A DNA stretch of 20,882 nt, taken from contig NZ_JOGO01000091.1 in NCBI RefSeq assembly GCF_000719475.1, positions 1 through 20,882 on the forward strand, given 5' to 3'. The position numbers were made by a program, and so were the translations under genes. This document shows, one piece after another, positions 3,308 through 20,882 of this stretch. The stretch's first letter is position 1, and each line of letters starts with the position of its first letter. Source of the DNA: Streptomyces sp. NRRL F-5630. GTDB lineage: Bacteria; Actinomycetota; Actinomycetes; Streptomycetales; Streptomycetaceae. Under the pieces are notes generated by a model, which ran no database searches, was not told where the DNA came from, and worked only from the letters and a program-made list of their open reading frames with translations.

Positions 3308-4221
3308 TCCTCCGGCCTCCTGCCGACCGGGGCCTCGCCCGCCTCGTCGTCCGTCGCCCGGACCGCCGGATCGGCCACCCGTACCGCGTGGATGCGCGGA
3401 GTCCCCGGCTCTCCCGTCGCGTCCACGCTCACCGGGCGGGCCTCGCCGCGCTCCTGGGCCGCGATCTCCTCGGCCAGCGCCTCGGTCTCCATGACCATCC
3501 CCGCCGGTCCGGTCGGGTTGACGTAGAGGGAGTGCCCCTCGGGCAGCGCCTCGACCACGTCGGGCACCGGCACCAGCCGGGCGGCGAACGTCCCGACGAC
3601 GCGGTAGTAGGCGGGACTGGTGAAGACGGGGATCACCGGCTCGCCCTGCGCCGACCGCACGGCCACCGGCTCGCCGTCGGGGCCGACGAGCACCGCGACC
3701 TTCGCGGCGGCCAGCGTACGGAGGACCTCCCCGGCGGGTCCGTAGCCGGTCACGGCGCGCTGGATCGCGGACTCGACCGGGTCGGTGGCCCTGGGCCAGC
3801 CGAGCGCGTCCGGGGAGGGGCGGTACTCCTCGTTGTCCTCCCACGCCACCACCGTGCCCGTGGAGTCCGTACGCCACCGGCCGGGGATCGCCCAGGCGGG
3901 CGGCGCGCCCTCGCCCGACCACGCGGGATCGGGAACGCTCAGCCACCGGTCGGGCAGGCCCCGGGCAGCCTCGACCACTTCCGGGGGCGGTTCGGGCAGG
4001 GACGCGGCCGGGCCGTCCGCCCCGTCGGTCCGGTCCTCGTCGCTCCGGTCCTCGTCGGCCACGGCCGTCGGCACGGCGGTGGCGGCGGGCGCGACGGCGG
4101 CGGACTCGGTGGCGATCTGCCCGAACACCGGTATCACCCCGGCGTCTTCGGCATCGGGGAAGGGCTCTGGTTCGGGCAGAACAGCCTTCTCCGGGACGGC
4201 CCTGTCGTCGTACTCACTCAC
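3304..4221 (-). CDS. SseB-domain type VII secretion-associated protein, paralog 1
   Basis: A 305-residue protein. Residues 1-80 are Pro/Ala/acidic and probably disordered. Residues 88-160 carry the family's N-terminal signature: [15 protein letters not shown], a W-R-T-D strand, [16 protein letters not shown] and ATGYG-like VTGYG. Residues 165-250 match an SseB N-terminal-type domain with [11 protein letters not shown] and the closing NPTGPAGM. A 55-residue charged tail follows. In Streptomyces, proteins with this layout are annotated as type VII secretion system-associated; the molecular role is not established, and a chaperone or adaptor role is my inference. The start is a GTG with GGAG 9 nt upstream. 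The stop overlaps the next gene as GTGA, which suggests translational coupling and a matched dose of the two products. I see no cysteine, signal peptide or membrane segment. Confidence 0.87.
3305..3321 (-). promoter_or_regulatory. Ribosome binding site and GTGA start/stop overlap
   Basis: On the minus strand AGGAGG (3321-3316) lies 8 nt before a GTG start at 3307-3305, whose last two bases form part of the TGA stop (3306-3304) of the upstream SseB-domain gene. A second purine run, GGAGGA, abuts the start. This fixes the start of the leftmost large gene, which is otherwise easy to miss because it has no stop inside the window. Confidence 0.8.
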
Positions 4222-4693: not shown

Positions 4694-4699
4694 CGCGTA

Positions 4700-5644
4700 T
4701 CAGTTCTCTCCCGCCGCTGCGGGCCCGGGCCGCTCCGGCCTCCCGGCCGGCCCGTCGCCGCTGCCCGGCCCGCCCTCCACGGTCTCGTCCGTCGGCCACT
4801 GCGCGTCCGTGGGGAAGTCGGGCCATCCCTCGACCGACCCGAGGTCCGGCAGATCCGCGAAGCCCTCGGGCGAGCCGCCGGACGGCGCGGGAGGAGTCGA
4901 CCACACGTCGGCGGCCTCCTCCGCCTCGTACCGCTCGAGGTCGGACTTGGCCTCCCGCAGCGAGCCCGCAGTGACGAGCTGTCCCACCGGGGCGGAGGAG
5001 CTGAGGAACAGCACCTCCTTCCCTTCCGGCAACCGGTCCAGGAGAGCGGGCACGGACATCACCTCGTGCGGAGGCAGTCTGTCGTCCTCCAGCTCCGGTG
5101 ACGGCGAGAAGACGGGCACGGCCTCGGTACCGTCCTCCGCGTCCGTCACCGCCAGGCCGCCGTTCTCGTCGAGGCACACGGCCACCTCGGCGTCGGCGAG
5201 CATCAGGGCGAACACATCCTCCGAGGCGTATCCGGTGGCGACCAGTTGCACGGCGGCGTCCACCGGGCTGACCGGCGGGGCCCAGCCGTGCGCGTCGGGC
5301 GAGGGACGGTAGTCGGTGTTCACCTCCCATTCGACGATCTCCCCGTTCTCGTCGCTGCGCCAGCGCCCGAGGCTCGCCCAGGTGGGAGCGGGTTCGCCCT
5401 CGTCACCGTTCCAGTGCCGGTCGATCACGGACAGCCAGTGGTTGGGGGCCGTCTTGGCGGCCTTGACGTAGTCCTCGGGTGGCTCCCGGAACCCCGGCTG
5501 GCCCCTCAGCACGGCGGACGGACCGCCCTGGACGGGACCGCCCGGGGGCGGGCCGCCCGGGCCCGCGCCGACGGGCCCGTCCGCGCTGTCCGCCTCGGCG
5601 GTGTTCTCAGGCTCGTGGTCCGGAGTACCGGAAGGGCTCGTCAT
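4700..5644 (-). CDS. SseB-domain type VII secretion-associated protein, paralog 2 (divergent)
   Basis: A 314-residue protein if started at the ATG at 5644-5642, which has GGAG 9 nt upstream. An in-frame ATG at 5659 would add five residues but has no visible binding site. Residues 1-45 are Gly/Pro/acidic. Residues 68-139 hold the family signature ([44 protein letters not shown]). Residues 148-235 correspond to the SseB-like domain, but its two hallmark motifs are altered: FTSP reads FSPS, and NPxGPxGM reads SSSAPVGQL. An 80-residue acidic Pro/Gly-rich tail follows, unlike paralog 3. One cysteine is present. It is the last gene before the hairpin at 4663-4693. Divergence at the hallmark motifs suggests a different partner or role from the other two paralogs; this is inference. 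Confidence 0.83.
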   Translation of the reverse strand: MTSPSGTPDHEPENTAEADSADGPVGAGPGGPPPGGPVQGGPSAVLRGQPGFREPPEDYVKAAKTAPNHWLSVIDRHWNGDEGEPAPTWASLGRWRSDENGEIVEWEVNTDYRPSPDAHGWAPPVSPVDAAVQLVATGYASEDVFALMLADAEVAVCLDENGGLAVTDAEDGTEAVPVFSPSPELEDDRLPPHEVMSVPALLDRLPEGKEVLFLSSSAPVGQLVTAGSLREAKSDLERYEAEEAADVWSTPPAPSGGSPEGFADLPDLGSVEGWPDFPTDAQWPTDETVEGGPGSGDGPAGRPERPGPAAAGEN

Positions 5645-5682
5645 GGGAGGCAACTCCATCGGGATGCGGTGTGCGAGGTGCG

Positions 5683-5729: not shown

Positions 5730-6368
5730 TCACGGTCGGTCGCCGGGGCCGGGCTCCTGGGCCGCCGCTTCGACCGCCCGGCGCAGGGCGTCGGTCTCCA
5801 CGGTCATGCCGACCGGTCCGGAGGGGTTGAGGTACAGCACGTGGCCCGCCGGTATCCGGTCCACCACGTCGGGAACCGGCATCAGTTCGTAGCCGAAGCG
5901 CCCGGCCGCGTGCAGGTACGTGGGGGAGGTGAAGACGGGCACCACCCAGGTCCCGTCGGGTGAGGTGGCCGACAACGGGACGCCGCCGGGGCCCAGCAGG
6001 ACGGCGACCTCCGCCACGGCCAGCGTCCGCGGCACCGCCTCACCCGGGCCGTAGCCGGTGGCGGCGAGCTGGACCGCCTCGTCCACCGGATCGGTCGGCG
6101 CGGACCAGCCGAGTGCCTGGGGCGAGGGGCGGTACGCCTCGTTGGGGCGCCACTCCTCGATGTCGCCGTCCAGGCCGGACCTCCACTGGCCCACCACCGC
6201 CCAGTCGGGCGGTTCGCCCTCCCCCGACCACGCGGGGTCGACCATGCCCAGCCAGTGGTCGGGAGCGAGCCGGGCGGCTTCCTTGATGTCGTCGGGAACC
6301 GGCGGCATGGCGTCGTCGGCGGCCCCGGCCCCGGCGGTGGGCGCCCCGGCGGCGGTGTTGTCGTTCAT
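5730..6368 (-). CDS. SseB-domain type VII secretion-associated protein, paralog 3
   Basis: A 212-residue protein and the most compact of the three paralogs. Residues 1-28 are an Ala/Gly/acidic lead. Residues 37-107 carry the family signature: [42 protein letters not shown] and AATGYG. Residues 114-195 match the SseB-like domain with WVVPVFTSPTYL and NPSGPVGM intact. There is almost no tail. The ATG start at 6368 has GAGG 5 nt upstream and lies only 18 bp after the stop of the giant gene, so the two are very probably co-transcribed. I see no cysteine, signal peptide or membrane helix. It is the best candidate for a dedicated partner of the giant protein, perhaps a secretion chaperone or adaptor; that role is inference from family annotation and position. 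Confidence 0.9.
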   Translation of the reverse strand: MNDNTAAGAPTAGAGAADDAMPPVPDDIKEAARLAPDHWLGMVDPAWSGEGEPPDWAVVGQWRSGLDGDIEEWRPNEAYRPSPQALGWSAPTDPVDEAVQLAATGYGPGEAVPRTLAVAEVAVLLGPGGVPLSATSPDGTWVVPVFTSPTYLHAAGRFGYELMPVPDVVDRIPAGHVLYLNPSGPVGMTVETDALRRAVEAAAQEPGPGDRP

Positions 6369-6386: not shown

Positions 6387-9300
6387 TTACGCACGGTCGT
6401 TCAGTATGTGGCGGAGTTTGTCGGCCAGGGAACCGGACGGCTCCAGGCCCCGCGCGCGGAACCAGGCGTCGACCAGGCGCTCCAGCCGGTCGGCCGTCAG
6501 GACACCGTCGTCCGAGGCGGGCAGACCGTCCAGGCCCGGTGTATCCAGCGGGCCCAGGGCCCTCAGCGCGTCCAGGACATCCTCCAGGACGTCCCGGTGC
6601 TCCGCCGACCACTCGGCCACCGCCGGATCGGCCGGGTCGGCCGGTTCGTCCCGCTCCGCGCCCGCCGGCCAATCCGCCGTGTCCGCCGCGTGCTCGTCGG
6701 GGAACTTGCCGTCGACGGCCACGTGCTCCCGCAGCTCCGCCTCGGTCAGCGGGGCGATATTCCGGTAACGGCCCCAGTTGCCGACGTAGTCGAGGTCGGC
6801 CGGCACCGCCTCACCGCTCTGCCTCAGCCGGTCGAGGACGAGCTGGGAGCCCCGCATGATCTCGTCCAGCGAGTGGTGCCTCGCTTGCAGCATCTCGGCC
6901 ATCAGCGCGAGGCGCACCAGGCCCAGGTCGACGTCCAGTCCCCACGCGTCGCGCATCTTCGCGGCCTGCGACATCAGCCGGTGGGACGAGCCCGAGGTGC
7001 CGGCCAGGACCAGGCCGCCGTTCCGCTCGGCCTCGGACTGCGGCCGGGTGTCCATGGCGATGGCGAAGCGGTTCGTGCCCGGGATCCACGCAACGCCGTC
7101 GTCCGGCATCAGGGCCCGCTCGGCCTCGCTCAGCGGCGGCGACAGGTCCTCGGGGCGCACCGGCGTCCGCAGCGCCCGCTCGGCCTCGGCCATGCGCGCC
7201 TGCTCCTCGGGCGTCCTGTCCGGCCGCCCGGTCAGCTCCTCGTAGGCCGCCATCTCTCGCGCCCGCGGCCTCGACGCCACGTACTCGGCGGTGATCACCT
7301 CGGGCATGGGGTCGGGGCTGCCGAGCAGGTCGGAGATCAGGCCGCCCCGCCCGTCCGGTGACTGGCCGCCGATCCACAGCATGCCCATGCGTTCCCGCAG
7401 ATTGCCCGACTCCACCACCGCCAGGAGCCGGTCCCGGCCGGTGCCCACGGCGCCGTCGACGGTGCGGTCGTCCGAGCCCAGTTCCGGCCAGCGGCCCGCC
7501 CGCACGGCCCGCTCCCACAGCTCGCGCACCATCACGCCGAGCTGGGCGTTGGCCTCTTCGTGGCCGCCGAGATACCGGCCCAGCCGCTCCTCGAAGCGGA
7601 CGGCCTCCTCCATGTAGCGGATGCGGGCCCGGACCCACCCCGGCGCCTGCCCGGCCGTCGCCGTGCGCAGGACGGACACCGGCGCCAAGGACAGGGCGTC
7701 CGCCACCCGGCGCAGCCGCTCCTCGCTCGCGGCGGTGGTGTCGCCCGGCCCGTCCGGAAGTCCGGCGAGGTGGCGGTCCCCGTCCTGGACCAGGAGGGCG
7801 GTCGGTGCGCTCCGCGAGCGCTCACCGTGGAACGTCACCTCGCCGGCCGGGTCCGCCACGGCCACCGTCACGCCGAGCCCGCGTACCACCGCCGCCACGA
7901 GCGGCGCCATCGGCACGGTCCCGCCCTCGGTCCCGTAGGAGGAGTCGGCGAGCAGCACCCGGAGATGCTGGGCCGGGCTCAGGGGGACCCGCGAGGCCGG
8001 GAACCGGTCGCCGAGAAGCATCGCCTCCGCGCGCTGGGCGGTCCCGAGCCGTACCCCGATCCTGTCCAGGAGCCGCAGCGGAATGTCCCGGCTCGTGTCG
8101 AGCGGCTCCACCGGCACGTCGGACACGTCGTCGTCGGTGAGGGAACCGTCCAGCCAGCCGCGGAAGTCCTCGGCCGTCTCGATGCCCGCCTGTCCCAGGG
8201 CGTCGGCCGCCACGTACCGGAGGGCGAACAGCAGGGTGTCGACGCTCCGGTCGCCCTCACCCGGCGACTCGTGGAGGGCGAAGACGGTGCCGTCGAGTTC
8301 GGCGGCGTACGGGCCGGTGCGCCGGTAGCCGTCGACGGGCGCGGGAACCTCCGGGGCCACGGCGGTGTTCTCGTCGTTCGCCGGTGCCGGACCGGTGTCC
8401 GCGTCGTCGTGGGCGCCGGCGTCGTCGTCGTCGGTGAGTTCCACGATCCGCGGCCGCGGCTCGCCCTCGGCGTTGCGGTAGGCCGGGTGCGGGTAGGCGG
8501 GCGCCTCCCGGAACTCGTAGTCGGCGAACAGCCGCCCGGTGTTGGGCTCCGTCTCGATCTCGCGGAGGACCACGTTCAGGGCCATGCCCGGCGCGTAGAG
8601 CACCTCGTCCTCTTCGAGCCACGCCGAGAACGGCGTGACCACACGTGCGGTGGAGTGGTCCACGAACCCCCGCATCGGGTGCCGGTCCTGAGCGTCGCCG
8701 ATCTCACGGGCGTCGCCCCGCGTGTAGCCGATCGCCGTCGCCGGGTCCTCGGTGGTGCTGCGGAACCGCGGCATGTACAGCGTGTCCGCAGTGAGGAGCG
8801 GCGAGTTCCCCGGGAACTCGTCCAGACGTCCAGGCAGCCAGCCGCCCCACCACACCTGTCCGTTCAGCGGCGGCAGGATCTCCAGTGCCTCGGCCGCCAT
8901 GCCGACGTGCGCGGCCAGGCCGTCGTACACCCTGTCGGCGACCCGGTACACCTGGCGGCGCACCTCGGCGACGGCCGGGCCGGTCGCCTCCGGGCCCAGG
9001 TTCCGCAACGCGTCGACCGCGTCGAGGAGGTCCTCGTCGGAGATCAACAGCTCCGGCAGGAGCGTGTCGTCGTTCGTGGCGTCCTCCCGCGCGTACCGCC
9101 ACACCTGCTGCCTGACCATCCAGCGGCCGACGGCCTCACCGAAGCGGCCACCGGTGACGTAGGTCTTGAAGAGCGCGTGGTCCTCGCCGCTGTAGAGGAA
9201 CAGCGCGGTCAGGTGACCGGGGCTCAGGGCGCGCAGGGCCGCCACGCCGCCGTCCCCGAACCGCCGCAGCCACGCGGTGGCCACCTCGACCCGTTCCTGG

Positions 9301-12300
9301 TGGGACTCGTCGTCCGGCGTGGCTCCGGTCAGTGCCGCCCTCAGCGCCGCGCCGATGTCCTGGGGGACGGCGAGGTCGTACCTGGAGACGAAGCGCGTCC
9401 TCTTGTCGTAGACGTGGTGGTGCGGCAGGGACGGGCCGATGCCGAAGGCGCGCCCGGCCCACTGGTGCAGCCGCGCACCGTCGCGGGCGAGCGCGGCGCG
9501 CTCCGCCTCGGTGCCCAGGCCCGCCAGGTGCGAGACGCGCAGCACCTCGTGCAGGGAATGGGTGTCCGTCAGGATCGACCAGGACAGCAGCGCCTTGCGG
9601 AAGGCCGTCAGCTCGGACCTGCTCGCCCCGATCGCCCCGTACGCCTGCAACAGCCACAGGGCCGGGCCCACCGTCCCGCCGACGTGGCGGAACCCGCGCA
9701 GGTCGTGCGCGGTCCGGTACGCCCCCTGGCGGGGACCCGGCGGCCTGGGCGCGCGCGGCGAGCGGAGCCAGCCGGGCAGGGTGTGCCGCAGGGTGACGGG
9801 GCCCTGGCCGCCGTACGCCGCGTGGGCGAACGCCCGCATCAGGGCGGGCGCGGACGGCCCGGACGCCAGGAACCGGCGCACCGCGTCCGGCTGCCCCAGC
9901 CACCGCTCGGCCTCCGGCCCCTGGAAGAAGGCGGCGTCCGCGGCGGACGCGCCGTGCCGCTGCGCCAGTACGTGGTGGAGCCGGGCGACGGCCCTCGTGA
10001 CGCCCTGGACGGCCTCGGGGTCGGCGGCCAGCTTCCGCGCCAGGGTCTGCTCGAACTGGAAGCTGAGCTGTCGCCACTCCCGTTCCCGGTACAGCGGGGC
10101 GAAGCGTACGGCCTCGGGCGAGCCGGCGACCCGCCAGCCGGGCACCGACCAGGGCGGGCCGGTACGCGCGGGCGGTCCCGCCGCCACGAGGGAGGGTGCG
10201 GGCGCGGGCTCGGCCAGGCTCGGGTCCGCGCCGGCCCGGAACCGCGGGCGGACATGCAGCCAGCCCGTGGCACCCCCGTCGGCGGACTCCAGGAGGTGGA
10301 TCTCGGCCGTCGGATCACCCTCCTCGTCCTCGCCGGGCGTGACCGCCGTCCGGCCGGTGTTGAGGTACACGTCCAGGCCGGTGAAGTCGGCGATCCCCTG
10401 GGCTCGTTCGACGGCGCGCCGCAGGCTGTCGTCCTGTCCCTGGGGCGCGGTGGCGGCCCCGGTGGCGGCGCGGGGTCCGGTGGCGGGGCGGCTCCCGGTG
10501 TCGCAGGCGAGGACCGTGATGCTGGTGAAGCCCGCCGCGGGCAGGTCCTGGCCCAGGACGTGCCCCACCATCTCGCTGTCCGCGCCGATGGGCATGTCGT
10601 TCCGGCCGGCGACGGCGTAACCGCCCTCCCGGCCGTGGGACGTCCAGAAGAACGTGCCGGATTCTCCCGTGGCGGGGAGCGGACGCCGCACGGCCACGTG
10701 TTCCCCGGCGGGGCCGCGGCTCCACTCGGTGTAGTGCGTGGCCTGGGGCAGGTGGCCGTAGAAGGGCTCGCGCAGCGCCCAGTCGCGCCGGGTGAAGGAC
10801 GCCTTCCCGACCGTCCGGCCGTCCTCACGGATCTCCTGGACGGCGATCGCTTCCGCGGAAGGCGCGGTCTCGTGGCCCGCCCACGGGGTGTTCCAGTAGT
10901 CGGACCTCGGATACGCGGGGGCCGGTGCGTCGAAGCGGTCGTCGTCTCCGAGGCGGGAATCGGCGTCCGAGTACCCGTCGCTGTCCGAGGCCTCGGCGTC
11001 GGACAGGTCGGAGTCGGAGCGACCGAGGTCGAACAGGGCGTCCACCGAGTCCTCGAACGCGGCCGGGGCGTAGGGCAGCGGGTCGGCCTGGGACGCCGTG
11101 GGGAGGCCGTCGGGCAGCGGGGTCGCCTCCTCGGCCACCTCGCTCAGCATCGGAGGGCGCAGGCGGGTTTCGACGAGCCGCCGGCTGACGACGTCGAACC
11201 TCATGCCCGGCGGGTACAGCGCCTCGCCTTCCGACAGGTGCTTGAGGAAGGGCGTGCCGTCGCGCGCCGTCGAGTTCCTGACCTCGATCAGCCTGCGGTG
11301 CGTACGCGCGGGAACCGCCCTGTCGCCCAGGGCGAAGTCGGTCGCCTCCTCGATCCGCAGCGACGTGCTGCGGAAGAACGGTACGTCGATCGTCCCGGCG
11401 CCGTACACGGGACCGTTCTCGGCCGGCGCGTCCAGGGGCCCGGGCGCCCCCCGCTCGCCCCACCAGACGGTCCGCCCGACGGACGGCAGGATCTCCAGCG
11501 CCTCGATGGCCATGTCGATGTGCAGCTTCAGCTCGTCGTGCAGCCGGTCGGCCATCATGTCCACGCGGCGCCGCAGCCGGGCCAGCTCCGGGCTCGGGGT
11601 GTCGAGATCGGGCAGTTCGGACAGTTCCTCGTACAGATCCGTGAACTCGGGCTGGCTGACCAGGGTGAGCGGCGGCCTCTCCAGCTCCTCCTCGCGCGCC
11701 GACTCGAGGATGTAACGCCAGGCGTGGAAGCGCACCAGGTGGCGGCTGAGGCCCTGGCCCAGCCGTTCGCCGTTGAGCACCGCCTTCATCAGCCGGTAGT
11801 CGTACGAGCTGTAGAGGTACAGGGCCGTGATGTGGGCCGGGGTGAGCCGGCTGAGCGCGTCGGCGCCCCGGTCGCCGTACTGCTCCATCCACTCGGCCAT
11901 GACCTGGAGCCTGCGGGAGGAGCCGGACGGCACTTCGCCGCTGAGCACCGCGTCGGCCATCTTGACGAGGGCGTCCGGCACGGCCATCGTCCCGGTGAGC
12001 TCGAACGGGAATGTCATGCGCTGCTGGTAGAGGTCCTGGTGCGGGGGGAGCAGGGCGTCGAGCGTGTCCCTGTCGATCTCGGGGCTGATCAGCCCGCTCT
12101 CGAGGAAGTGACGCACCGTCCAGGCGTGCAGCGAGGCACCGTCCCGGGTGACGGCGGCGCGCTCGTCCGCGGCACCCATCCCGATCAGGTGGGAGGCGCG
12201 CAGGATCTCGGACAGCGACTGCAGGTCGTACGGAATCAGCCAGGTGACCAGAGCGGCCCGGAACAGCGGCAGCGAGGTGGCCGGCAGGCCGAGCGCGGCG

Positions 12301-15300
12301 GCCATCCGCAGCAGGCGCAGCGCGGGGCCGCGCTCACCGCCCACCCGGCGGAAGCCCCGGCTGTCGAAGACGGCGCGGTAGGCGCTGTCCGCGTCGACCC
12401 GCTCGTCGCCGGAGAGGGCCTCCTCGATCCGGCGGGGCAGTCCCGGGCCGGCGTAGGCGGCGCGGACGAGGGCCCGCATCAGCCCGTCGAGCGCTTCCGG
12501 CCCGGGGGGCGCGTCGAGCAGCTCCGCCCACGCGGCGGCCGGGTCCTCCGGCATCGCGTCCGGGTCGAAGAACGCGCGCACCGCCCGCTCTTCCCCGTTG
12601 CGCCCGGCGAGCTGCTCGTACACCCCGCGCGCCACCAGTGCGACCGCCTCGGTGGGTTCGGGTGCGTAGCTCAGCGCCTCGGCGAGGTTGTCCTCCCAGT
12701 CGACGGCGGCCTGCCGCCAAGCGCGCTCCCGGTAGAGGCCCGTGAAGCGCGGCGTGTCCGGGGCCCCGGCCGGCCGCCAGGAGGACACCGACCAGGGCGC
12801 TCCCTCGGCCGCGTCGATGTTTTCGAGCTGCTCCGGGGTGGCGTCCCGCATGGTTCCCGTGACGTTGAACTGCTCGGCGGACGGATAGCCGAACGCGGTG
12901 CGCCGCCCGGTTCCCGCGCCCGGGGCCGGTACGCGGGGGCCCGACCAGTTGTCCGGGTACTCCGTCACCCAGACCGTGGCCCGCCCGTCGGCGTCCTCCA
13001 GCAGGTGCGGCGACGCGCCGGACACCGCCGAGCGCCCCACCGGCAGATGGACCGGCAGCCCCGCTCCGTTCGCCAACCGCCTGGCCCGCGCCCGGGCCTC
13101 CGCCTCGCTGCCCGGCACCTCACCGGGACCGCACGCGAGCACCGTCACACTGCGGAAGCCCCGTCCTCGCGCCGACCGCAGCAGCCGCCCCGCGTACGAG
13201 CCGTCGTCCCGCCGCACGCCACCGTCCTCGGTGACCAGCGCGAGCCCTTCGGCGCCACCGTGCGACGCGAAGAAGAACGTGCCGTCGGCCGTGCCGCCGC
13301 CCGGCAGCGCCTGCTCCGTCGCGACCGGCCGGCCCGCGTCGTCCCGCTCCCACGAGACGAAGCCCGTCGCACGGTCCAGCCGGCCGTACCCGTCCTGTCG
13401 CGCCGCCCAGTCCGCGTCGTCGAACGAGGCCACGCCGATGAGCTCGCCGTCCTCCCCGTGGATCGGGCGCAGCACCGGCTCGGGCCGCTCCCCGCCCTCG
13501 ACGCCGGTGGTCCGCGGACCGATGCCGAACAGCCCGTCCGGGGAGACGAGTCCGGGAGCCCACCGAGCGGCGCCGGACGCGTCCTGACGCGGTGTCGCCT
13601 CCCGGGCGTCGATGGACTCGTACGAGGTCGTCGTCACACCGGCCGGGACGATCGTCCGGGTGGAGATGTCGAAAGAGGCGCCCGGCGGATACAGGACCTC
13701 CGTCTCCAGCGGCGAGACCACGAACGGGCTGACCTCGCGCGCCGTCGAGCGCGCCACGCGCACCAGCCCGCGATGCGAGTCCCCGGGAGTGCCCTTGCTC
13801 CGGTACATGAAGCCGAGTGCCGAATCCTGCCGCAGCGCCGTGCTCCGGAAGAACGGCACCGTGATCCGGTCCCGGCCGTACACCGGACCGTCCGTCGACG
13901 GCGCGTCCAGCGGGCCCGGCAGCCCCCGGTCGCCCCACCAGACGTCCTCGTTCACCGGGGGCAGGATCTCCAGCGCCTCGACCGCCATGTCGACGTGCAG
14001 CGACAGCTCCTCGTACACCGCGTCGGCCATCGCGTCCAGGCGGCGCCGCAGGCGGGCCACCTCGGGGGTCGATTCCTGGAGGTCGTCCGCGTCCCACATC
14101 GCGTCGTACAGGGCGACGAAGCCGTCCCGCTGGCGGAACGTCATCGGGAGCAGGTCCCAGGCGCCGACCTCGGCCATCTTCGAGATCATCGCCCAGGCGT
14201 TGAGGCGCACCAGGCGACGCCCCATCCCCGCGCCGAACCGCTCGCCGTTGAGGAACGCCTTCATCAGCCGGTAGTCGGCACCGCTGTAGAGGTGCAGGGC
14301 CGTCAGGTGCGCCGGGTCCAGCCGCTCCAGTGCTTGCCTGCCCGCGTCGCCGTAGCGGTCCAGCCACGCGTGGAGCGCCCGGCTCCGGTCCGTGTCGGCG
14401 GGCAGGGTCCCGTTGAGCGCGGCGTCGACCAGGGCCACCAGGCCCTCGGGCAGATCGAGCTTGCTGCGGGTGTTGTCCCGGCCGAACCTCATCCGCTCGG
14501 CGTACAGCGCGCGGTGCGGCGGGACGAACCGCCCGGCGGAGGGATCGCCCGGGGCGGTCCGGCCGGACGTCCTGACCGCGTCCGCCACCCAGGCGTGGAG
14601 TCCGGCGCCGTCGCGCAGCGCGAGGTCGCGTTCCGCGTCGGTTCCCAGGCCGATTCGGTGGGAGGCGCGCAGGATCTCGGGGAGCGACTGCAGGTCGGCC
14701 GGGATCGCCCAGGCGACGAGCGCGTCGCGCAGCGCGAGCAGTTCGGCGGGTGACGCGCCGAGCGCCGCGTAGGTGCGCAACAGCCGGAGCGCGGGCCCGT
14801 GCTCGCCGCCCACCCGGCGAAGTCCCCGGCTGTCGTGCACTTCGCGGTAGGCGCTGCCCGCCGTGTACCGCCCACGGCGGCCGGCCGGACGGACCAGGGC
14901 CTCGGCCGCCTCGCGCGGCAGCCCCGGACCCGCGTACGAGGCGTACGTGAGCGCGGTCATCAGCTCGTCGACGGCGAGCGGTCCCGGGGGCAGCGTACGC
15001 AGCCGCTCCAGCTCCGCGGCCGGGTCCGCCGGGATCGCGTCCGGTGCGAAGAAGACGCGCTGGGCCGCGTGCTCGCCGTGGCGGGCGGCGAGTTCGTCGT
15101 ACATACGGGACACCGCGTCGCGGACGGTCTCGGTGAGCCCGTCGGTCCGGCCCGTGTGCTCGGCGAACGCGAGCTCCAGGTCGGCACTGCGACGCCGCCA
15201 CGCCCGGTCGCGGTACATGCTCGCGAACCGCACCGCGCCGGGTGATCCGGCGGGCCGCCAGGACGGCACCGCCCAGCCCGGAGAGTCGTCGGAGGCGGTC

Positions 15301-18300
15301 CCGGTGCCCGTGGGACCGGCGGTGTCGTCGGCGGTGCCCGCCTCCGGGGTGTCCGCCTGACCTGCCGGGGACACGCGAGTGGCGTTGATCTGGACGGGGA
15401 CCGGATACGCGAGGACGGAGCGCTCGCCCCCCTCGACGGAACCGCTGCCGTCGCGGCCGCTGCCGTCCGGCCCCGCGCCCTGTCGGACCGCGTCGGCCGA
15501 GCCGGCGCCAGGCGAGGTTCCGGGCGCGAAGTGGAATGTCCCGACGCCTGAGTCGTGCCGGGTCAGCGGTGCCGGCCGGGACGCGGGGGCGGCGGCCGTG
15601 GTGACGGCCCCGGAGGAGGACGGCAGGACCGGCCGGGCCTTCCAGACGGTCGTCTTCCACTGCCCCAGCTTCTTCTCGCGGAGGGCCGTGATGCGCAGCG
15701 GGTCGAACGGGTCTTCCTCGAGCACGTCGAGCGGTCCGGTGTAGGCCCAGGCGTTCCGGCCGGTCCGGTCGGAGAACGCCTGCGGCCGCTTCCCTCCGTC
15801 GGCCCCGAACTCGGGCATCGGGAAGACGACGGGGGTGCCGACGCTCACCTCGGTCACCAACGGGGCGAGGTCCAGGAGGGCCCAGAGCTCCTCGTCGGGT
15901 ACGGGCATCGGAGGGTGTCCGGGCAGGTGGATCACCACGGTGCCCTGGTCGGTCCCGGTCCAGATCACTCTTGTTGCGCCCGGTGACTCGTCCGACTTCC
16001 ACTTCGCCGGGTGAGCAACGGTGCGGATGGTGCCGCTGGGGCTGCCCTTCACCCGCGCGTACCACTGGTCCACGTCCACACCGTTCGGGGCCGGGCGGCC
16101 GCTCCAGTTGTAGCCGGTCGCCTCCTTGCCGTCGGTGAGGATCTCCTCGAAGGCACCCAGTTCCTTGAGGTGGTGGGCGGCGAGCGCGTGCCGGTCGGTG
16201 ATGTCCAGGCCGCTCACGTGAGCCCGTGCCGCCAGGAGCGTCAGCTCCATGACCTGGTCATCGGTCCACGGGTCCGTGGCCGCCATGTGGAGGACGCCGC
16301 GGCCCAGGTTCTCCTGGTCAGCGTCCGGTGTCCGGAACAGGACCAGGTCGGCCGCGGCCACGGTGGCCCAGAAAGCCCGTGTGATGTCCTTCGGACCCGC
16401 CTGCGTGACATCGGGCAGGTCCAGCGTGCCCTGTACGAGGGTCAGTCCGTTGCCGCCCGAGAACTCGTCGAGCGCGTACCCCAGGGCGGTGTCCCGCACC
16501 ATCTCGCCGAGCCGAGCGTCCGGGCGCGCGGCCACCAGGCCCCGGGCCGCGTCCAGGACCCCCAGGTAGGCGGACTGGTCCGGGGTGTCCCCGCCGATCC
16601 GCCGCGCGAGGAACGTCCACATCTCCATCCGGAACGGCGTGGTCGCCCGCAGGACCGGGTCGTTGAGGCGCAGGGTCTCCAGCGCGCCGATGCCCTTCAG
16701 CACCCGCTCGTACGTGCCCCCCGGCACACCGCGGTCGTCCTCGACGGCGACGCCGAACGCCTCCCGCAGCGCACGCACCAGCCGCAGCGTGGCCGCACGG
16801 GTCTCCGGCGGCACGGCACCCGGGCCGCGGTGCAGCTCCGCGTCGCGCGCCAGCTGGTCCAGCTCGTGATCCAGGGGCTCCGGGCGGACGCGGTCCACGC
16901 GACCGACCACACCTCCCGGAGTGTCCTCCACGGCGAAGTAGTCTTCGCCGACCCCGGCGATCGAGGACTTCGCCTCGACGTCCAGCCGGCCGGCGTTGGC
17001 CGTGTGCTGCGCGAGCGACAGCCCCTCGTCGTCCAGGGGGTCCTCCACACGGGGTACCGGACGGCCCTCCCACTGATCGCGGTCAGGGTCGCCGGCCGAC
17101 AGGCCGAAGCACGCCTCCAGGCCGATCCGGTGGCCGGGGGGCAGCTCCCTGACCTCGCGCAGCCCACCGATGTACCGCCCGCCGTCGGCAGCGGACAGCC
17201 ACACGGTGCGGCCGTCGCGCAGGACGAGTGACATCGCGCCCGGAGTCCCGTGGGCGTAGTACGCGTAGACCGCGCGGTCCGGGGTGAGCGCCTCGGAGCT
17301 GACGTTCTTGTCGCCGTCAGCGGTGGCCACGTAGTGGAGGAGCCGCTTCTTGCGGAAGAAGCTCCGCAGCCGGTCCTCGCGGACCGCCATGTCGTCGTCC
17401 ATCGAGATGCGGCCGAACCGCTCGCTGCGGTCGAAGACCAGGGGATGGGTGGCCACGTCGCTGTCGCGGAACAGCGTGCCGTCGAGGGCGGTCCACTCGC
17501 GGTCCTCGAACGGCGCGGGTACCGCGGGCGGGTCGAACGGCACCCAGTCGCCGTGCCAGCCCTCGGTGTTCCGGACCATCATCGTCGGCACAGAGGCGCC
17601 CAGGCCGTTGTCGTGCCGCAGGCGCCCGTCACCGCTGGGCGCCCACACCCGCCGGCCCATCCGGAGGGCGACCGCGCGCATCAGCTCCATGTACTGCGAC
17701 CCCGCGTACGGAATCGCCAGCACCACCGGCACGTGCGGCGGCAGCTTCGCCAGCTCCGGGTCGTGGGCCAGCCTCTCCGCGAACTCCTCGTGGCTCAGCC
17801 GCCGCCCGTCGAAGGCCCGGTCCCCGATCACGTACGCCTCGCCGCCCCAGGGCGCGGACTGGTCCGGCTCCTCCACCTCCGGCTTGCCCAGCCCGCCCAG
17901 GACCACCCGCACACGGTCGGTCCGCACCCGGTCGGTCAGGGTCCCCGTCAGGTCGCGTCCCCGCACCGTGCCGGAGGCGTCCCGCACCAGGGCGTTCGGG
18001 TCCACGAACGGGTCCGTGGCCTGCGTGGTGGGAGCCGTGGGGCCGAAGACGGTCGCGTCGTCCCGGGCGGTGGCCCCGAAGGCGGTGGTCCGGGCGGTGG
18101 TGGTCTGGGCGGTGGTGAGCAGCCGGGTGGCGGTGATCCAGGGGCCCGGGGCGTTGGTGGCCGGGTCGACGAGGGCGCGGATGCCGAGCGGGATCGAGGG
18201 GTCCGCGCTGGTCAGCGTCATCGGCGCGCCGTAGCCGAAGGCCGGGCGCCCGGTGCGCTGGGAGAACCGCTGCACCAGCTCGGGGCTCAGTGCCCCGTCG

Positions 18301-20882
18301 CCGGTGGTCAGGAACAGCACCGGTACGTCCAGGGGGACCGTGCGCAGCCCGGGAGACATGTCCAGCAACGCCAGGTACTCGTTCTCGGAGACGCGGACGG
18401 GGGCAAGGCCGGGGACGTGCAGCACGATGTTCCCGGCCCGGTCGGCCTCCACGACGTTCAGCAGCGGCATCGGAACGCCCGGGCCGGTCCATTCCGGCTG
18501 GACCGGACGCATGGCGAGCCCGTCGGGCCCGGGCGTCATCTGCCGCACGTTGACCCAGTCGATCCCTGCCGGTGCGGCTGTCCCGGACCAGTTGACGCCC
18601 TGGATGTGCGAGCCCTGCGTCAGCATCGCCGCCTGTGCGAAAGCACCACTCTCGTTCAGGTGGTACGCGGCCAGCAGATCCCGGTCGGAGACGTCCAGGC
18701 CCTCCGCTATCGCCTTGGCCGTCAGCGCCCACAAGCTCTCCTGCCACAACCGGTTCCAGGCGACCGTCGCGTCGAGGTGCAGGACTTGGCGGCCCATCGC
18801 TTCCCGCTCCGCGGACGACAGCGAGCCGAAGATCTGCGCGGCACGGACCATGGCCCAGAAGGTGGACGCCACGTGCCGGGGGGTGAACGTGGCCGAGGCG
18901 GGCAGCGACTGCACGAAACGGGTCACCTGCTCGCCCTGCCGGGAAAGCTGATGGAGCGTGACCTGGACAGCGGGCGACGGCACCGCCCTCGTCAGCTTCG
19001 CACCCGGATCGGCCGCGACCCGGGCCGCCGCGAAGTCGAGCAGGGACAGATACCCGGCGGGGTCCGGGGCCCGGCCGGTGTGCGCCTGGACGAAGAAGTC
19101 GAACATGTCCTGGCGGAACGGTGCGAGGTGGCCGATGTCCGTGTCGTTCGCCCGCATCCGCTCCAGCGCGCCGATGCCCTTCAGCGCCCGCTCGTACCGG
19201 CCCCCCGGCACGCCCCGGTCGTCCTCGACCTCCAGGCCGAACGCCGAGCGGAGCCCACGCACGAGCCGCAGCGTGGTCTCTCGCGTCTCGGGGGACACCG
19301 CGGCCGGGCCACGGTGCAGCCCCGCGTCCCGCGCCAACTGGTCCAGCTCGTGGTCCAGCGGCTCGGGGCGGCGCCGGACCCGGCGTCCGAACACACCGTT
19401 CGCCGCGCCCACGACCACCCGGGCGGTGTCGTCCAGACCGGTGTGCCTGGTGCTGCCTTCGACATCCCGCCGGCTTTCGTTGGACACGAGCTGGTCGAGC
19501 GGCACGTCGCCCAGCGGATCGTCGACGTGAGGCGCCGGAGCGTACACGGGCTGGTCCCGCAGCGGATCGCCGTCCGAAGAACTCCAGCAGACCTCCAGAT
19601 GCATCCGGTGCCCCGGCGGCAGTTCCCGCACCTCGGGCAGCCCGGAGATGTAGCGCGCGGCATCCTCCTTGCCCAGCGTCACCGTCCGGCCGTCACGGAG
19701 GGGAAGATGCATCCTGCCCGGCTCACCATGGGCGCCGAAGACGTACACGGCCGGATCCGGAGCGATCTGCTCGGTACTCGCCGTATAGCGCCCGTCACCG
19801 GCCGGCAGCCTGTGCAGGAGCCGGCTCATCCGGCGGTACGTCCGGAAACGCCGCTCCCGCCGGCGCAGCCCGTCCTCCTCCGCGACGGCCAACCGGCCGA
19901 GCCACTCATGGTGGTCGTCCATCAGCGGACGGGTGAGCACGTCGCTGTCGCGGAACGTCGTCCCGTCCAGCGCCGTCCACTCACGGTCCGCGTACGGCGC
20001 GGTCGCCGCCGATGACGGAGGCACCGGCACCCACGCGCCGACCGCCGCGTCCGGGGAACGGTCCATCAGCACCAGTACGTGCCCGTTCCCGGACCCGTCG
20101 GGAACCAGCCGCCCCTCGCCGCTCGGGCCCCACACGGTCCGGCCGAGCCGGTCGGCCACCGCCCGCAACGTCGCCTGGTACTGCTCCCCCGCGAACGGAA
20201 TGGCCAGCACGACAGGGACGTCCTTCGGCAGCTTCGCCAACTCGGGGTCGGCCGCCAGCGCGTCAGCGACCGCCTCGGCGTCCAGCACCCGGCCGTCCGG
20301 CAGCCGCACCCGCCCGTTCTCGCCTTCGGCCGCCACGACGTAGGCGGTGTCCGGCCACGGCGCGGGCTCGTTCGACACCTCCTTCGGCGCGGCACCCGGC
20401 CGGGTCTCGACGACCCGCACCCGCCCCGGCAGAACCCGGCCCACCACGGGCCTGCCTGTCCAGTCACGGCCCTGCGCACGCCCCGACGGACCCTTGAGCA
20501 GGCCGTTCGGCGACAACATCGGGTCGTTCGGCCCCATGAACCTGCCCGACATGGCCGGCGGCGCGGAAGAGTTCACCGCGGGCGCAGGCGCGGGCGCGGC
20601 CGTCCCCGGCGGTGGCGCGAACAGGGACATCTCCGCGTCCCCCGTCGTCCCACTGCCGAGCGCCTGCCCGGCGGCAGGCCCGTCCCAGGCCCGCACGCTC
20701 TGATGACTGGGGACGATCGAGAACCAGGACAGCTCCAGGTCCATACCCACCGAACCGGCCGCCGAGACCAGCAGGAACTGCAAAGCCACCGGCAACGGAG
20801 GCTCCGGCTGACCGTTGGCGGCGAAGTACGAACCGACCGCGAACCGCAGATCGCCCCACGTCAACGGCGACCGGACACCATT
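6387..20882 (-). CDS. Giant multi-unit 'lonely Cys'-type protein with repeated caspase-like and ADP-ribosyltransferase-like modules; 5' end missing
   Basis: One frame stays open from the right edge to a TAA at 6389-6387, giving at least 4,831 residues. An in-frame TTG at 20864 is probably internal, because the frame continues to the edge; residue numbers in this annotation count from it. Order: hydrophobic lead and Pro/Ala linker (1-115); units A1 and A2 (about 115-1745); Gly/Ser/Thr/Pro linker (1745-1860); units B1, B2 and B3 (1860-4120); acidic linker (4120-4175); OTU-like region (4180-4375); helical C-terminal domain (4385-4825). Only four cysteines occur: 426, 1252, 2578 and 3454. Each lies 43-47 residues after a His-Gly (379, 1205, 2535, 3410), as in caspase-like clan CD peptidases. 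Very long Streptomyces proteins of this kind are, to my recollection, annotated as lonely Cys domain-containing. The SseB-domain gene 18 bp downstream suggests a link to type VII secretion. Neither target nor activity can be read from the sequence, and no recognised terminal toxin domain is seen. Confidence 0.92.
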   Translation of the reverse strand, partial: NGVRSPLTWGDLRFAVGSYFAANGQPEPPLPVALQFLLVSAAGSVGMDLELSWFSIVPSHQSVRAWDGPAAGQALGSGTTGDAEMSLFAPPPGTAAPAPAPAVNSSAPPAMSGRFMGPNDPMLSPNGLLKGPSGRAQGRDWTGRPVVGRVLPGRVRVVETRPGAAPKEVSNEPAPWPDTAYVVAAEGENGRVRLPDGRVLDAEAVADALAADPELAKLPKDVPVVLAIPFAGEQYQATLRAVADRLGRTVWGPSGEGRLVPDGSGNGHVLVLMDRSPDAAVGAWVPVPPSSAATAPYADREWTALDGTTFRDSDVLTRPLMDDHHEWLGRLAVAEEDGLRRRERRFRTYRRMSRLLHRLPAGDGRYTASTEQIAPDPAVYVFGAHGEPGRMHLPLRDGRTVTLGKEDAARYISGLPEVRELPPGHRMHLEVCWSSSDGDPLRDQPVYAPAPHVDDPLGDVPLDQLVSNESRRDVEGSTRHTGLDDTARVVVGAANGVFGRRVRRRPEPLDHELDQLARDAGLHRGPAAVSPETRETTLRLVRGLRSAFGLEVEDDRGVPGGRYERALKGIGALERMRANDTDIGHLAPFRQDMFDFFVQAHTGRAPDPAGYLSLLDFAAARVAADPGAKLTRAVPSPAVQVTLHQLSRQGEQVTRFVQSLPASATFTPRHVASTFWAMVRAAQIFGSLSSAEREAMGRQVLHLDATVAWNRLWQESLWALTAKAIAEGLDVSDRDLLAAYHLNESGAFAQAAMLTQGSHIQGVNWSGTAAPAGIDWVNVRQMTPGPDGLAMRPVQPEWTGPGVPMPLLNVVEADRAGNIVLHVPGLAPVRVSENEYLALLDMSPGLRTVPLDVPVLFLTTGDGALSPELVQRFSQRTGRPAFGYGAPMTLTSADPSIPLGIRALVDPATNAPGPWITATRLLTTAQTTTARTTAFGATARDDATVFGPTAPTTQATDPFVDPNALVRDASGTVRGRDLTGTLTDRVRTDRVRVVLGGLGKPEVEEPDQSAPWGGEAYVIGDRAFDGRRLSHEEFAERLAHDPELAKLPPHVPVVLAIPYAGSQYMELMRAVALRMGRRVWAPSGDGRLRHDNGLGASVPTMMVRNTEGWHGDWVPFDPPAVPAPFEDREWTALDGTLFRDSDVATHPLVFDRSERFGRISMDDDMAVREDRLRSFFRKKRLLHYVATADGDKNVSSEALTPDRAVYAYYAHGTPGAMSLVLRDGRTVWLSAADGGRYIGGLREVRELPPGHRIGLEACFGLSAGDPDRDQWEGRPVPRVEDPLDDEGLSLAQHTANAGRLDVEAKSSIAGVGEDYFAVEDTPGGVVGRVDRVRPEPLDHELDQLARDAELHRGPGAVPPETRAATLRLVRALREAFGVAVEDDRGVPGGTYERVLKGIGALETLRLNDPVLRATTPFRMEMWTFLARRIGGDTPDQSAYLGVLDAARGLVAARPDARLGEMVRDTALGYALDEFSGGNGLTLVQGTLDLPDVTQAGPKDITRAFWATVAAADLVLFRTPDADQENLGRGVLHMAATDPWTDDQVMELTLLAARAHVSGLDITDRHALAAHHLKELGAFEEILTDGKEATGYNWSGRPAPNGVDVDQWYARVKGSPSGTIRTVAHPAKWKSDESPGATRVIWTGTDQGTVVIHLPGHPPMPVPDEELWALLDLAPLVTEVSVGTPVVFPMPEFGADGGKRPQAFSDRTGRNAWAYTGPLDVLEEDPFDPLRITALREKKLGQWKTTVWKARPVLPSSSGAVTTAAAPASRPAPLTRHDSGVGTFHFAPGTSPGAGSADAVRQGAGPDGSGRDGSGSVEGGERSVLAYPVPVQINATRVSPAGQADTPEAGTADDTAGPTGTGTASDDSPGWAVPSWRPAGSPGAVRFASMYRDRAWRRRSADLELAFAEHTGRTDGLTETVRDAVSRMYDELAARHGEHAAQRVFFAPDAIPADPAAELERLRTLPPGPLAVDELMTALTYASYAGPGLPREAAEALVRPAGRRGRYTAGSAYREVHDSRGLRRVGGEHGPALRLLRTYAALGASPAELLALRDALVAWAIPADLQSLPEILRASHRIGLGTDAERDLALRDGAGLHAWVADAVRTSGRTAPGDPSAGRFVPPHRALYAERMRFGRDNTRSKLDLPEGLVALVDAALNGTLPADTDRSRALHAWLDRYGDAGRQALERLDPAHLTALHLYSGADYRLMKAFLNGERFGAGMGRRLVRLNAWAMISKMAEVGAWDLLPMTFRQRDGFVALYDAMWDADDLQESTPEVARLRRRLDAMADAVYEELSLHVDMAVEALEILPPVNEDVWWGDRGLPGPLDAPSTDGPVYGRDRITVPFFRSTALRQDSALGFMYRSKGTPGDSHRGLVRVARSTAREVSPFVVSPLETEVLYPPGASFDISTRTIVPAGVTTTSYESIDAREATPRQDASGAARWAPGLVSPDGLFGIGPRTTGVEGGERPEPVLRPIHGEDGELIGVASFDDADWAARQDGYGRLDRATGFVSWERDDAGRPVATEQALPGGGTADGTFFFASHGGAEGLALVTEDGGVRRDDGSYAGRLLRSARGRGFRSVTVLACGPGEVPGSEAEARARARRLANGAGLPVHLPVGRSAVSGASPHLLEDADGRATVWVTEYPDNWSGPRVPAPGAGTGRRTAFGYPSAEQFNVTGTMRDATPEQLENIDAAEGAPWSVSSWRPAGAPDTPRFTGLYRERAWRQAAVDWEDNLAEALSYAPEPTEAVALVARGVYEQLAGRNGEERAVRAFFDPDAMPEDPAAAWAELLDAPPGPEALDGLMRALVRAAYAGPGLPRRIEEALSGDERVDADSAYRAVFDSRGFRRVGGERGPALRLLRMAAALGLPATSLPLFRAALVTWLIPYDLQSLSEILRASHLIGMGAADERAAVTRDGASLHAWTVRHFLESGLISPEIDRDTLDALLPPHQDLYQQRMTFPFELTGTMAVPDALVKMADAVLSGEVPSGSSRRLQVMAEWMEQYGDRGADALSRLTPAHITALYLYSSYDYRLMKAVLNGERLGQGLSRHLVRFHAWRYILESAREEELERPPLTLVSQPEFTDLYEELSELPDLDTPSPELARLRRRVDMMADRLHDELKLHIDMAIEALEILPSVGRTVWWGERGAPGPLDAPAENGPVYGAGTIDVPFFRSTSLRIEEATDFALGDRAVPARTHRRLIEVRNSTARDGTPFLKHLSEGEALYPPGMRFDVVSRRLVETRLRPPMLSEVAEEATPLPDGLPTASQADPLPYAPAAFEDSVDALFDLGRSDSDLSDAEASDSDGYSDADSRLGDDDRFDAPAPAYPRSDYWNTPWAGHETAPSAEAIAVQEIREDGRTVGKASFTRRDWALREPFYGHLPQATHYTEWSRGPAGEHVAVRRPLPATGESGTFFWTSHGREGGYAVAGRNDMPIGADSEMVGHVLGQDLPAAGFTSITVLACDTGSRPATGPRAATGAATAPQGQDDSLRRAVERAQGIADFTGLDVYLNTGRTAVTPGEDEEGDPTAEIHLLESADGGATGWLHVRPRFRAGADPSLAEPAPAPSLVAAGPPARTGPPWSVPGWRVAGSPEAVRFAPLYREREWRQLSFQFEQTLARKLAADPEAVQGVTRAVARLHHVLAQRHGASAADAAFFQGPEAERWLGQPDAVRRFLASGPSAPALMRAFAHAAYGGQGPVTLRHTLPGWLRSPRAPRPPGPRQGAYRTAHDLRGFRHVGGTVGPALWLLQAYGAIGASRSELTAFRKALLSWSILTDTHSLHEVLRVSHLAGLGTEAERAALARDGARLHQWAGRAFGIGPSLPHHHVYDKRTRFVSRYDLAVPQDIGAALRAALTGATPDDESHQERVEVATAWLRRFGDGGVAALRALSPGHLTALFLYSGEDHALFKTYVTGGRFGEAVGRWMVRQQVWRYAREDATNDDTLLPELLISDEDLLDAVDALRNLGPEATGPAVAEVRRQVYRVADRVYDGLAAHVGMAAEALEILPPLNGQVWWGGWLPGRLDEFPGNSPLLTADTLYMPRFRSTTEDPATAIGYTRGDAREIGDAQDRHPMRGFVDHSTARVVTPFSAWLEEDEVLYAPGMALNVVLREIETEPNTGRLFADYEFREAPAYPHPAYRNAEGEPRPRIVELTDDDDAGAHDDADTGPAPANDENTAVAPEVPAPVDGYRRTGPYAAELDGTVFALHESPGEGDRSVDTLLFALRYVAADALGQAGIETAEDFRGWLDGSLTDDDVSDVPVEPLDTSRDIPLRLLDRIGVRLGTAQRAEAMLLGDRFPASRVPLSPAQHLRVLLADSSYGTEGGTVPMAPLVAAVVRGLGVTVAVADPAGEVTFHGERSRSAPTALLVQDGDRHLAGLPDGPGDTTAASEERLRRVADALSLAPVSVLRTATAGQAPGWVRARIRYMEEAVRFEERLGRYLGGHEEANAQLGVMVRELWERAVRAGRWPELGSDDRTVDGAVGTGRDRLLAVVESGNLRERMGMLWIGGQSPDGRGGLISDLLGSPDPMPEVITAEYVASRPRAREMAAYEELTGRPDRTPEEQARMAEAERALRTPVRPEDLSPPLSEAERALMPDDGVAWIPGTNRFAIAMDTRPQSEAERNGGLVLAGTSGSSHRLMSQAAKMRDAWGLDVDLGLVRLALMAEMLQARHHSLDEIMRGSQLVLDRLRQSGEAVPADLDYVGNWGRYRNIAPLTEAELREHVAVDGKFPDEHAADTADWPAGAERDEPADPADPAVAEWSAEHRDVLEDVLDALRALGPLDTPGLDGLPASDDGVLTADRLERLVDAWFRARGLEPSGSLADKLRHILNDRA
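6390..7710 (-). other. C-terminal helical domain of the giant protein
   Basis: Residues about 4385-4825. A long helical stretch (RYMEEAVRFEERLGRYL onward) leads to a compact block at about 4585-4675 with GTNRFAIAMDTRP, GTSGSSHRLMSQAAKMRDA and HHSLDEIMRGSQ. These polar motifs (G-T-S-G-S-S-H-R and H-H-S-L-D-E) look like a conserved functional site, but I cannot assign a family. An acidic Asp/Ala/Pro stretch and a final helix (SLADKLRHILNDRA) end the protein. This would be the terminal module if the protein works like a polymorphic toxin, which is not shown. Confidence 0.5.
7740..8335 (-). other. OTU-like module of the giant protein, predicted catalytically dead
   Basis: Residues about 4178-4375. 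The segment PGEGDRSVDTLLFALRYVA resembles the GDGDCFYRALL entry motif of OTU-type cysteine peptidases, but the nucleophile position is Arg4206. Near the end, LLVQDGDRHLAGL resembles the closing strand that carries the catalytic His (His4365 here). No cysteine exists anywhere in the module. Family assignment rests on two motifs and spacing only. If correct, the module is a non-catalytic descendant that may bind rather than cut. Confidence 0.4.
8500..10170 (-). other. Unit B3 of the giant protein: helical region plus ADP-ribosyltransferase-like fold
   Basis: Residues about 3566-4120. The unit opens with PPWSVPGWRVAGSPEAVRF, as in B1 and B2, followed by a helical region. The ART-like core reads LYSGEDHALFKTYVTGG, then VWWGGWLPG (Trp4005-Trp4006), FRSTTE (Ser4036) and EEDEVLYAPG (Glu4085 and Glu4087). 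Unlike B1 and B2 it is not followed by a caspase-like core but by an Asp-rich linker and the OTU-like region. The Arg found 3-4 residues after the Trp pair in B1 and B2 is absent. Confidence 0.65.
10215..12810 (-). other. Unit B2 of the giant protein: helical region, ART-like fold, caspase-like core
   Basis: Residues about 2686-3550. It begins PWSVSSWRPAGAPDTPRF. The ART-like core has LYSSYDYRLMKAVLNGE, VWWGERG (Trp3134-Trp3135), FFRSTSL (Ser3166) and SEGEALYPPG (Glu3212 and Glu3214). A Ser/Asp-rich tract (SDSDLSDAEASDSD, near 10940-11030) links it to the caspase-like core: FFWTSHGREGG (His3410), then SITVLACDTG (Cys3454). The motif order matches unit B1 throughout, which supports duplication of a whole unit. 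Confidence 0.7.
12850..15285 (-). other. Unit B1 of the giant protein: helical region, ART-like fold, caspase-like core
   Basis: Residues about 1860-2672. It begins AVPSWRPAGSPGAVRF, then a long helical region. The ART-like core shows LYSGADYRLMKAFLNGE (compare the YSGxxYxxIN helix of R-S-E class enzymes), VWWGDRG (Trp2309-Trp2310), FFRSTAL (Ser2341) and ETEVLYPPG (Glu2387 and Glu2389). The caspase-like core follows with FFFASHGGAEG (His2535), then SVTVLACGPG (Cys2578). The usual NAD-binding Arg of the ART family would fall on the second Trp. Confidence 0.7.
15625..18024 (-). other. Unit A2 of the giant protein: alpha/beta modules flanking a caspase-like core
   Basis: Residues about 948-1747. 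It starts TDPFVDPNALVRDASG and carries VPVVLAIPYAGSQY...GRRVWAPSGDGRL, then EWTALDGTLFRDSDV, then YYAHGTPG (His1205) and ELPPGHRIGLEACFG (Cys1252). The block PEPLDHELDQLARDA and the segment VEDDRGVPGG...LKGIGALE are shared with unit A1. A second alpha/beta module (VGTPVVFPMPEFG...SDRTGRNAWAYTGP) closes the unit. Confidence 0.7.
18025..20530 (-). other. Unit A1 of the giant protein: alpha/beta modules flanking a caspase-like core
   Basis: Residues about 113-947. It starts NDPMLSPNGLLKGPSG and carries VPVVLAIPFAGEQY...GRTVWGPSGEGRL, EWTALDGTTFRDSDV, then FGAHGEPG (His379) and ELPPGHRMHLEVCWSS (Cys426). His-Cys spacing is 47 residues, the same as in A2. Matching positions in A1 and A2 lie 826 residues apart, so the pair arose by duplication of a full unit. 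Confidence 0.7.

Follow-up and report, generated by a model that had tools for sequence, protein, structure and literature searches.

Contig NZ_JOGO01000091.1 of Streptomyces sp. NRRL F-5630, analysed here in full and called the window (contig C91 of our numbering, 20,882 bases of a 7.06-Mb genome), encodes on its minus strand the C-terminal 4,831 amino acids (aa) of a giant 'lonely Cys' protein. We consider it fairly likely that this giant resembles polymorphic toxins and leaves the cell by a type VII (ESX-like) system, combining ADP-ribosyltransferase (ART) domains with caspase-like modules that cut their own chain. We show here four conserved His/Cys pairs, a predicted caspase-like fold around the first of these, an ART fold, and the position of giant genes near type VII loci. 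The elements of the protein are as follows, with residues numbered from the contig edge and "own HMM" denoting hidden Markov models (HMMs) that we built.

6387..20882, minus strand: C-terminal 4,831 aa of the giant 'lonely Cys' protein; no internal stop, 5' end lost at the contig edge
20028..20390, minus strand: degenerate caspase-like module, residues 165-285 (own HMM E 1.7e-9), with Glu-Gly in place of His-Gly and no Cys
19365..19862, minus strand: caspase-like module A1, residues 341-506, His385/Cys432 (own HMM E 6.9e-63, AF2, VIA-align, orthologs)
18129..18626, minus strand: probable degenerate copy, residues about 753-918 (NF012197 positions 81-244, the first part of the model, E 2.9e-13)
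17499..18017, minus strand: probable degenerate copy, residues about 956-1128 (self-comparison, 43% identity to residues 119-300; not matched by our own caspase-like HMM)
16881..17381, minus strand: caspase-like module A2, residues 1168-1334, His1211/Cys1258 (own HMM E 1.2e-53, orthologs)
15654..16139, minus strand: probable degenerate copy, residues about 1582-1743 (NF012197 positions 82-242, the first part of the model, E 5.7e-18)
13584..15179, minus strand: B1 unit, a helical region plus ART fold, residues 1902-2433
12921..13394, minus strand: caspase-like module B1, residues 2497-2654, His2541/Cys2584 (own B HMM E 4.7e-72, A-type HMM E 7.4e-9, orthologs)
11082..12662, minus strand: second helical plus ART unit (50% identity to the B1 unit, 488 bits; alignment A4)
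10224..10769, minus strand: caspase-like module B2, residues 3372-3553, His3416/Cys3460 (own B HMM E 8.0e-62, A-type HMM E 1.3e-9, orthologs)
8490..10055, minus strand: third helical plus ART unit (42% identity to the B1 unit over 8502-10007; alignment A4)

Cysteines of the giant proteins

The first-pass annotation, made from the sequence alone, had reported only four cysteines in this frame, each 43-47 residues behind a His-Gly pair, and both statements hold: cysteine occurs only at residues 432, 1258, 2584, and 3460 (426, 1252, 2578, and 3454 when counted from the in-frame TTG at 20864), and His-Gly precedes these by 47, 47, 43, and 44 residues, respectively. Against a background of 8.12 cysteines per 1000 residues, drawn from 163 open reading frames (ORFs; 70,077 aa) called in eighteen 20-kb stretches of this genome, 39.2 would be expected in a protein of this length (binomial P(<=4) = 9e-13). 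Cysteine is the most depleted residue, at 0.10x background, followed by lysine at 0.37x; we rejected lysine depletion as a special trait, as 19% of 77 ordinary large ORFs are equally Lys-poor.

This pattern extends to relatives. Nineteen giant frames totalling 185,250 aa, several of them cut by contig or stretch ends, contain 117 cysteines (0.63 per 1000), compared with 8.14 per 1000 in the 139 other ORFs of the giant-gene loci. Sixty-six of the 117 belong to caspase-like dyads, 10 to papain-like C..GHAW motifs, 5 to STEExCRDF, and 2 to YNCVxF; our script left 34 unclassified, about 8 of which look OTU-like by eye (GDGNCLF and similar). Among 26 database proteins (138,079 aa), a set that partly overlaps the first and is not independent of it, the 104 cysteines comprise 74 caspase-like, 12 papain-like, 5 STEExCRDF, and 13 others; enzyme names for the non-caspase motifs are motif readings only. 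PF15644, which we take to be a papain-fold family, is the precomputed domain of several of these proteins. One frame that runs out of frame (G203_21771) was omitted from the HMM survey, cysteine counts, and pooled composition, and P0001 and P0002 (the window itself) from the database set.

Predicted fold and conservation of the His/Cys pairs

The first-pass annotation had assigned the four pairs the geometry of clan CD (caspase-like) peptidases, an assignment supported by the predicted fold around the first pair and by conservation of the dyad in orthologs. In the AF2 model of A1, one core strand ends at the His and another at the Cys, and alignment with VIA-align indicates the caspase-like fold of clan CD. 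The top VIA rows are autoprocessing protease domains and CHAT, and the matches also include non-hydrolytic relatives (GPI transamidase, peptide ligases, and Raptor). Residues 5-199 of the AF2 model, listed for the degenerate module at residues 165-285, form the aligned part in 5 of 50 VIA rows.

We then aligned homologs, as the first-pass annotation had proposed. In all 11 chosen orthologs (P0003-P0008, L112, L113, L115, L118, and L121; 65-98% identity, some of them close to each other), the His, Gly, and Cys are kept at all four sites. Ten of these 11 have exactly these four cysteines in the best aligned piece, which for P0006 ends at residue 3522, and P0008 has six. For L113, the first His-Gly was read from a second alignment piece, the main alignment starting at residue 426; rearranged relatives such as L116, L119, L120, and P0012 were left out of the ortholog count.

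A wider survey used 224 caspase-like HMM matches spanning both the His and the Cys columns, others being left out; removal of near-identical copies ahead of the alignments took the sequences from 68 to 53 and from 67 to 38. Two of five cases, those of G072 and G288, seem to be misaligned. In a tree of 103 copies, obtained from the 224 by removing near-identical copies and matches under 90 aa, those lacking both His and Cys fall into few clades and the His changes only 4 times. Because these copies group in this way, the tree pictures an ancient division between active and degenerate modules and not many independent losses. In the window itself, probably half of the caspase-like copies are already degenerate (four with His and Cys, four without).

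ADP-ribosyltransferase units and linkers

Three helical plus ART units occur in the window part, with an ART fold and STS-like and ExE motifs. The Arg of the first motif of R-S-E ADP-ribosyltransferases is absent: the ART profile has Trp at the site of the Vis Arg, reading WWG against YRG in Vis (window residues 2305-2325 and matching places in the other units), and the FRST and ExE motifs remain. The window chain differs from the ADP-ribosyltransferases Vis, HopU1, XopAI, and Tre1 in carrying three ART copies, with Trp for Arg in the first motif of the profile.

The linkers before the Cys2584 and Cys3460 modules are variable except for two stretches, D.LF before B1 and, by eye, YP..DYWN.PW before B2. 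Either could be a recognition or cleavage site. A single shared linker motif as the site of self-cleavage stays no more than an idea: D.[LI]F lies upstream of 13 of the 54 distinct caspase-like copies examined, mostly in B1-like units (two of which lack it), and the conserved stretch of B2-like units differs.

Extent and identity of the protein

The frame has a GC content by codon position of 0.75/0.54/0.93. Its in-frame TTG at 20864 is very unlikely to be the start, because the window is an entire contig and the orthologous frame of SirexAA-E has 13,652 aa; window residues 2-4829 align with residues 8896-13649 of that frame (72% identity, 4,844 columns), and the window therefore holds about the C-terminal third of the protein. 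NF012197 (lonely_Cys) matches at E 1.5e-298 and 992 bits against a cut-off of 200, with six stretches passing, in agreement with the family name given in the first-pass annotation; a Pfam scan of the whole window protein found nothing significant, and the Pfam caspase family (PF00656) has 0 matches in the NRRL F-5630 genome. Antisense frames such as 7560-14753 (plus strand) were judged to be high-GC shadows, since their codon-position GC does not fit coding.

A further part of the giant gene is apparently on contig C97. There, a frame of 6,101 aa that lacks both its ends matches residues 394-1373 and 2643-4777 of SirexAA-E, and its last part aligns to repeats at two places. Secretion genes of the same genome lie on C63. 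From alignment and position on contigs that are not joined, it seems that C97 holds more of the same giant gene and C63 its secretion genes. Another lonely_Cys frame of this genome, with 4,694 aa and 2 Cys, lies at C70:16880-30964 (minus strand; loci L010-L011).

Type VII secretion genes and neighbouring features

Downstream of the giant gene, three genes match the 'type VII secretion system-associated' family NF033532. These and the C-terminal part of the giant are:

6390..8342, minus strand: C-terminal 651 aa of the giant (phmmer matches, some partial, to 17 of the 44 further frames and proteins examined; no Pfam match)
5730..6368, minus strand: type VII secretion system-associated protein, NF033532 lone7para_assoc (E 5.2e-62, above cut-off), with an SseB N-terminal domain
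4700..5659, minus strand: type VII secretion system-associated protein, NF033532 (E 3.7e-48, above cut-off)
3304..4221, minus strand: type VII secretion system-associated protein, NF033532, SseB-like (E 2e-53, above cut-off; SseB E 2.8e-8)

By eye only, the C-terminal region (6390-8342) looks OTU-like, though it has no Cys, and it carries an HSxxE-like motif. Beyond the type VII-associated genes follows a long Pro/Gly-rich frame (2-3334, minus strand) open at the contig edge, for which Pfam and NCBIfam gave no match at E 0.1.

Since an EccC-like match at E <= 0.001 occurs in 121 of 121 sampled Streptomyces genomes (above the family cut-off in 112), co-occurrence is meaningless and only nearness counts. 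Of the 25 genomes in this sample that match lonely_Cys (12 above cut-off, frames up to 17,018 aa), 20 have an EccC gene on the contig of the match, 12-26 kb away from it, a raw count among the matches listed. In a second set of 11 genomes, mostly chosen for the B unit, EccC lies within about 10-12 kb of the giant frame in 4 (G274, G295, G232, and G122). In SirexAA-E, EccC precedes the giant frame, and other frames before the giant resemble, by eye, the EccD, EccB, and WXG100 genes of the NRRL F-5630 genome. The giant locus of NRRL F-5630 itself is broken at contig edges; nearness is seen in SirexAA-E and those 20 genomes. An N-terminal WXG100_2 domain (PF25547) is above cut-off in both relatives tested; the N-terminus of the window protein is off the contig. 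Export of the window protein is probable.

All 26 source-named proteins among 27 database relatives, one of the 27 being the window itself, are from Streptomyces (scoring was limited to the 1,237 candidates sharing most words), as are all 12 loci in named genomes. With the B unit as query, 16 of 295 genomes gave matches, some weak, and frames up to 19,630 aa. That longest open frame (L079-L082, G133:C17) has only 2 Cys, and the 17,018-aa one (L075-L078, G069:C1) has 14. A further lonely_Cys match, at G057:C1:7446739-7447554, contains an in-frame TGA.

Proposed mechanism and alternatives

The reading we favour is that of a polymorphic-toxin-like giant that leaves the cell through a type VII (ESX-like) secretion system. 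Its window part would comprise three ART domains, four clan CD cysteine peptidase modules that retain His and Cys, and probably four degenerate copies. Once the protein is exported or inside another cell, Cys432, Cys1258, Cys2584, and Cys3460 would attack linkers of their own chain, which would fall apart into separate enzymes; MARTX toxins are likewise cut by a cysteine protease domain of their own, of which they have a single one. Degenerate copies may act as spacers or peptide holders, and other cysteines may have been purged because a long chain with several reactive thiols must avoid wrong disulfides while it crosses an oxidising space or resides there. A bolder version, which we regard as unlikely, is that the giants are redox-licensed polyproteins: with nearly all cysteines removed except enzyme nucleophiles, thiol enzymes (caspase-like, papain-like, and OTU-like) would cross the oxidising space as an inert chain, activate together in the reducing cytosol of the target, cut the chain, and then act.

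Several observations weigh against the self-cutting, exported giant. A Foldseek search of the PDB with the A model gave no hit at E <= 0.001, and VIA Z stayed below 8, a level that by the tool's own warning may reflect just a common arrangement. A PDB profile search with the A alignment found no match, and Pfam scans gave no peptidase. Joint loss of His and Cys is not independent evidence, and we rejected it as such, given the 4 His changes on the tree and a paired test resting on 3 pairs. ART activity is uncertain, judging from the replacement of the first-motif Arg by Trp. Among the matches listed, 5 of the 25 lonely_Cys genomes (G000, G032, G077, G084, and G112) lack EccC on the contig of the match; these contigs are 3-4 kb in G032 and G112 but 18-42 kb in G000, G077, and G084. 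In the second set, 7 of 11 genomes show no EccC on the giant's contig. Single proteins also vary, 4 of 77 ORFs of at least 400 aa in the same genome having no cysteine, so that scarce cysteine alone does not prove export. Finally, one frame (G122) has 22 cysteines, 15 of them among the 34 left unclassified.

Those cysteine-free ordinary ORFs, together with low Lys and Ile, could suggest that the scarcity follows from the composition of a GC-rich, Asp/Pro-rich chain and carries no information on active sites. This is already disfavoured and, in our judgement, highly improbable: depletion is tenfold for Cys and absent for Trp, Tyr, Phe, and His, and the cysteines of the 19 giant frames fall largely in the caspase-type, papain-like, STEExCRDF, YNCVxF, and OTU-like motifs counted above. 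It is rather unlikely that the caspase-like modules are weapons that cut proteins of the target cell and not their own chain, a role that the predicted clan CD fold would fit. In the window, it is degenerate copies and not ART domains with which the two A modules alternate, and some caspase-like domains, often C-terminal in polymorphic toxins, are probably toxins according to Zhang et al. 2012 (PMC3482391). Yet both B modules sit between ART domains within the chain, and the same authors interpret caspase-like domains that lie inside a chain, immediately before a toxin domain, as processing peptidases. We consider it quite improbable that the modules keep fold and dyad but have a different function, as binders or as enzymes of another kind (acyl transfer, ligation, or a regulated scaffold). 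The non-hydrolytic VIA matches and the probable degeneracy of half the copies would fit such a role, whereas the rank of autoprocessing domains and CHAT at the top of the VIA rows and the retention of His and Cys in the 11 orthologs speak against it.

Relation to known systems

Zhang et al. 2012 describe actinobacterial giants of >10,000 aa (e.g. gi 345002682 from Streptomyces sp. and gi 357410654 from S. flavogriseus) that combine caspase-like, ART, lethal-factor-like, OTU, and MCF1-SHE domains and have arrays of caspase-like repeats, some lacking catalytic residues, and they propose multiple autoproteolytic events. The SirexAA-E ortholog resembles these giants in its 13,652 aa, three ART-unit matches, and the four caspase-type cysteines of the window part; it has two HEFAH motifs and, elsewhere, a third HExxH (HEATH), and gi 345002682 is likely this very gene. 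The differences are small: we count four caspase-like modules with His and Cys against two, and we measured the exclusion of cysteine. As to an MCF1-SHE domain, the window shows, by eye, the HSxxE-like motif. The earlier interpretation as a whole is thus sound but not new, because the same kind of giant and its autoproteolysis were already proposed there.

The window protein matches NF012197 and its three downstream genes NF033532; as displayed, these NCBIfam entries name the Cys and the type VII link and no caspase-like peptidase. The cysteine protease domains of MARTX and large clostridial toxins, presumably MEROPS C80, share 8-12% identity with the window modules and no sequence match, and the window chain differs from these toxins in having several modules and a type VII link. 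C80 autoprocessing domains have an inositol hexakisphosphate-binding pocket and undergo cofactor-triggered self-cleavage. In the literature searched, with subscription journals mostly outside its scope, we found neither a family-wide count of cysteines kept mainly at nucleophiles nor a paper using the term 'lonely Cys'.

The basic idea is therefore not ours. If it is true, one gene of about 41 kb would deliver several self-separating toxins via a type VII system of a kind spread across Streptomyces, and the survival of cysteine only as nucleophile would offer an inexpensive way to locate active sites in very large proteins that are still uncharacterised.
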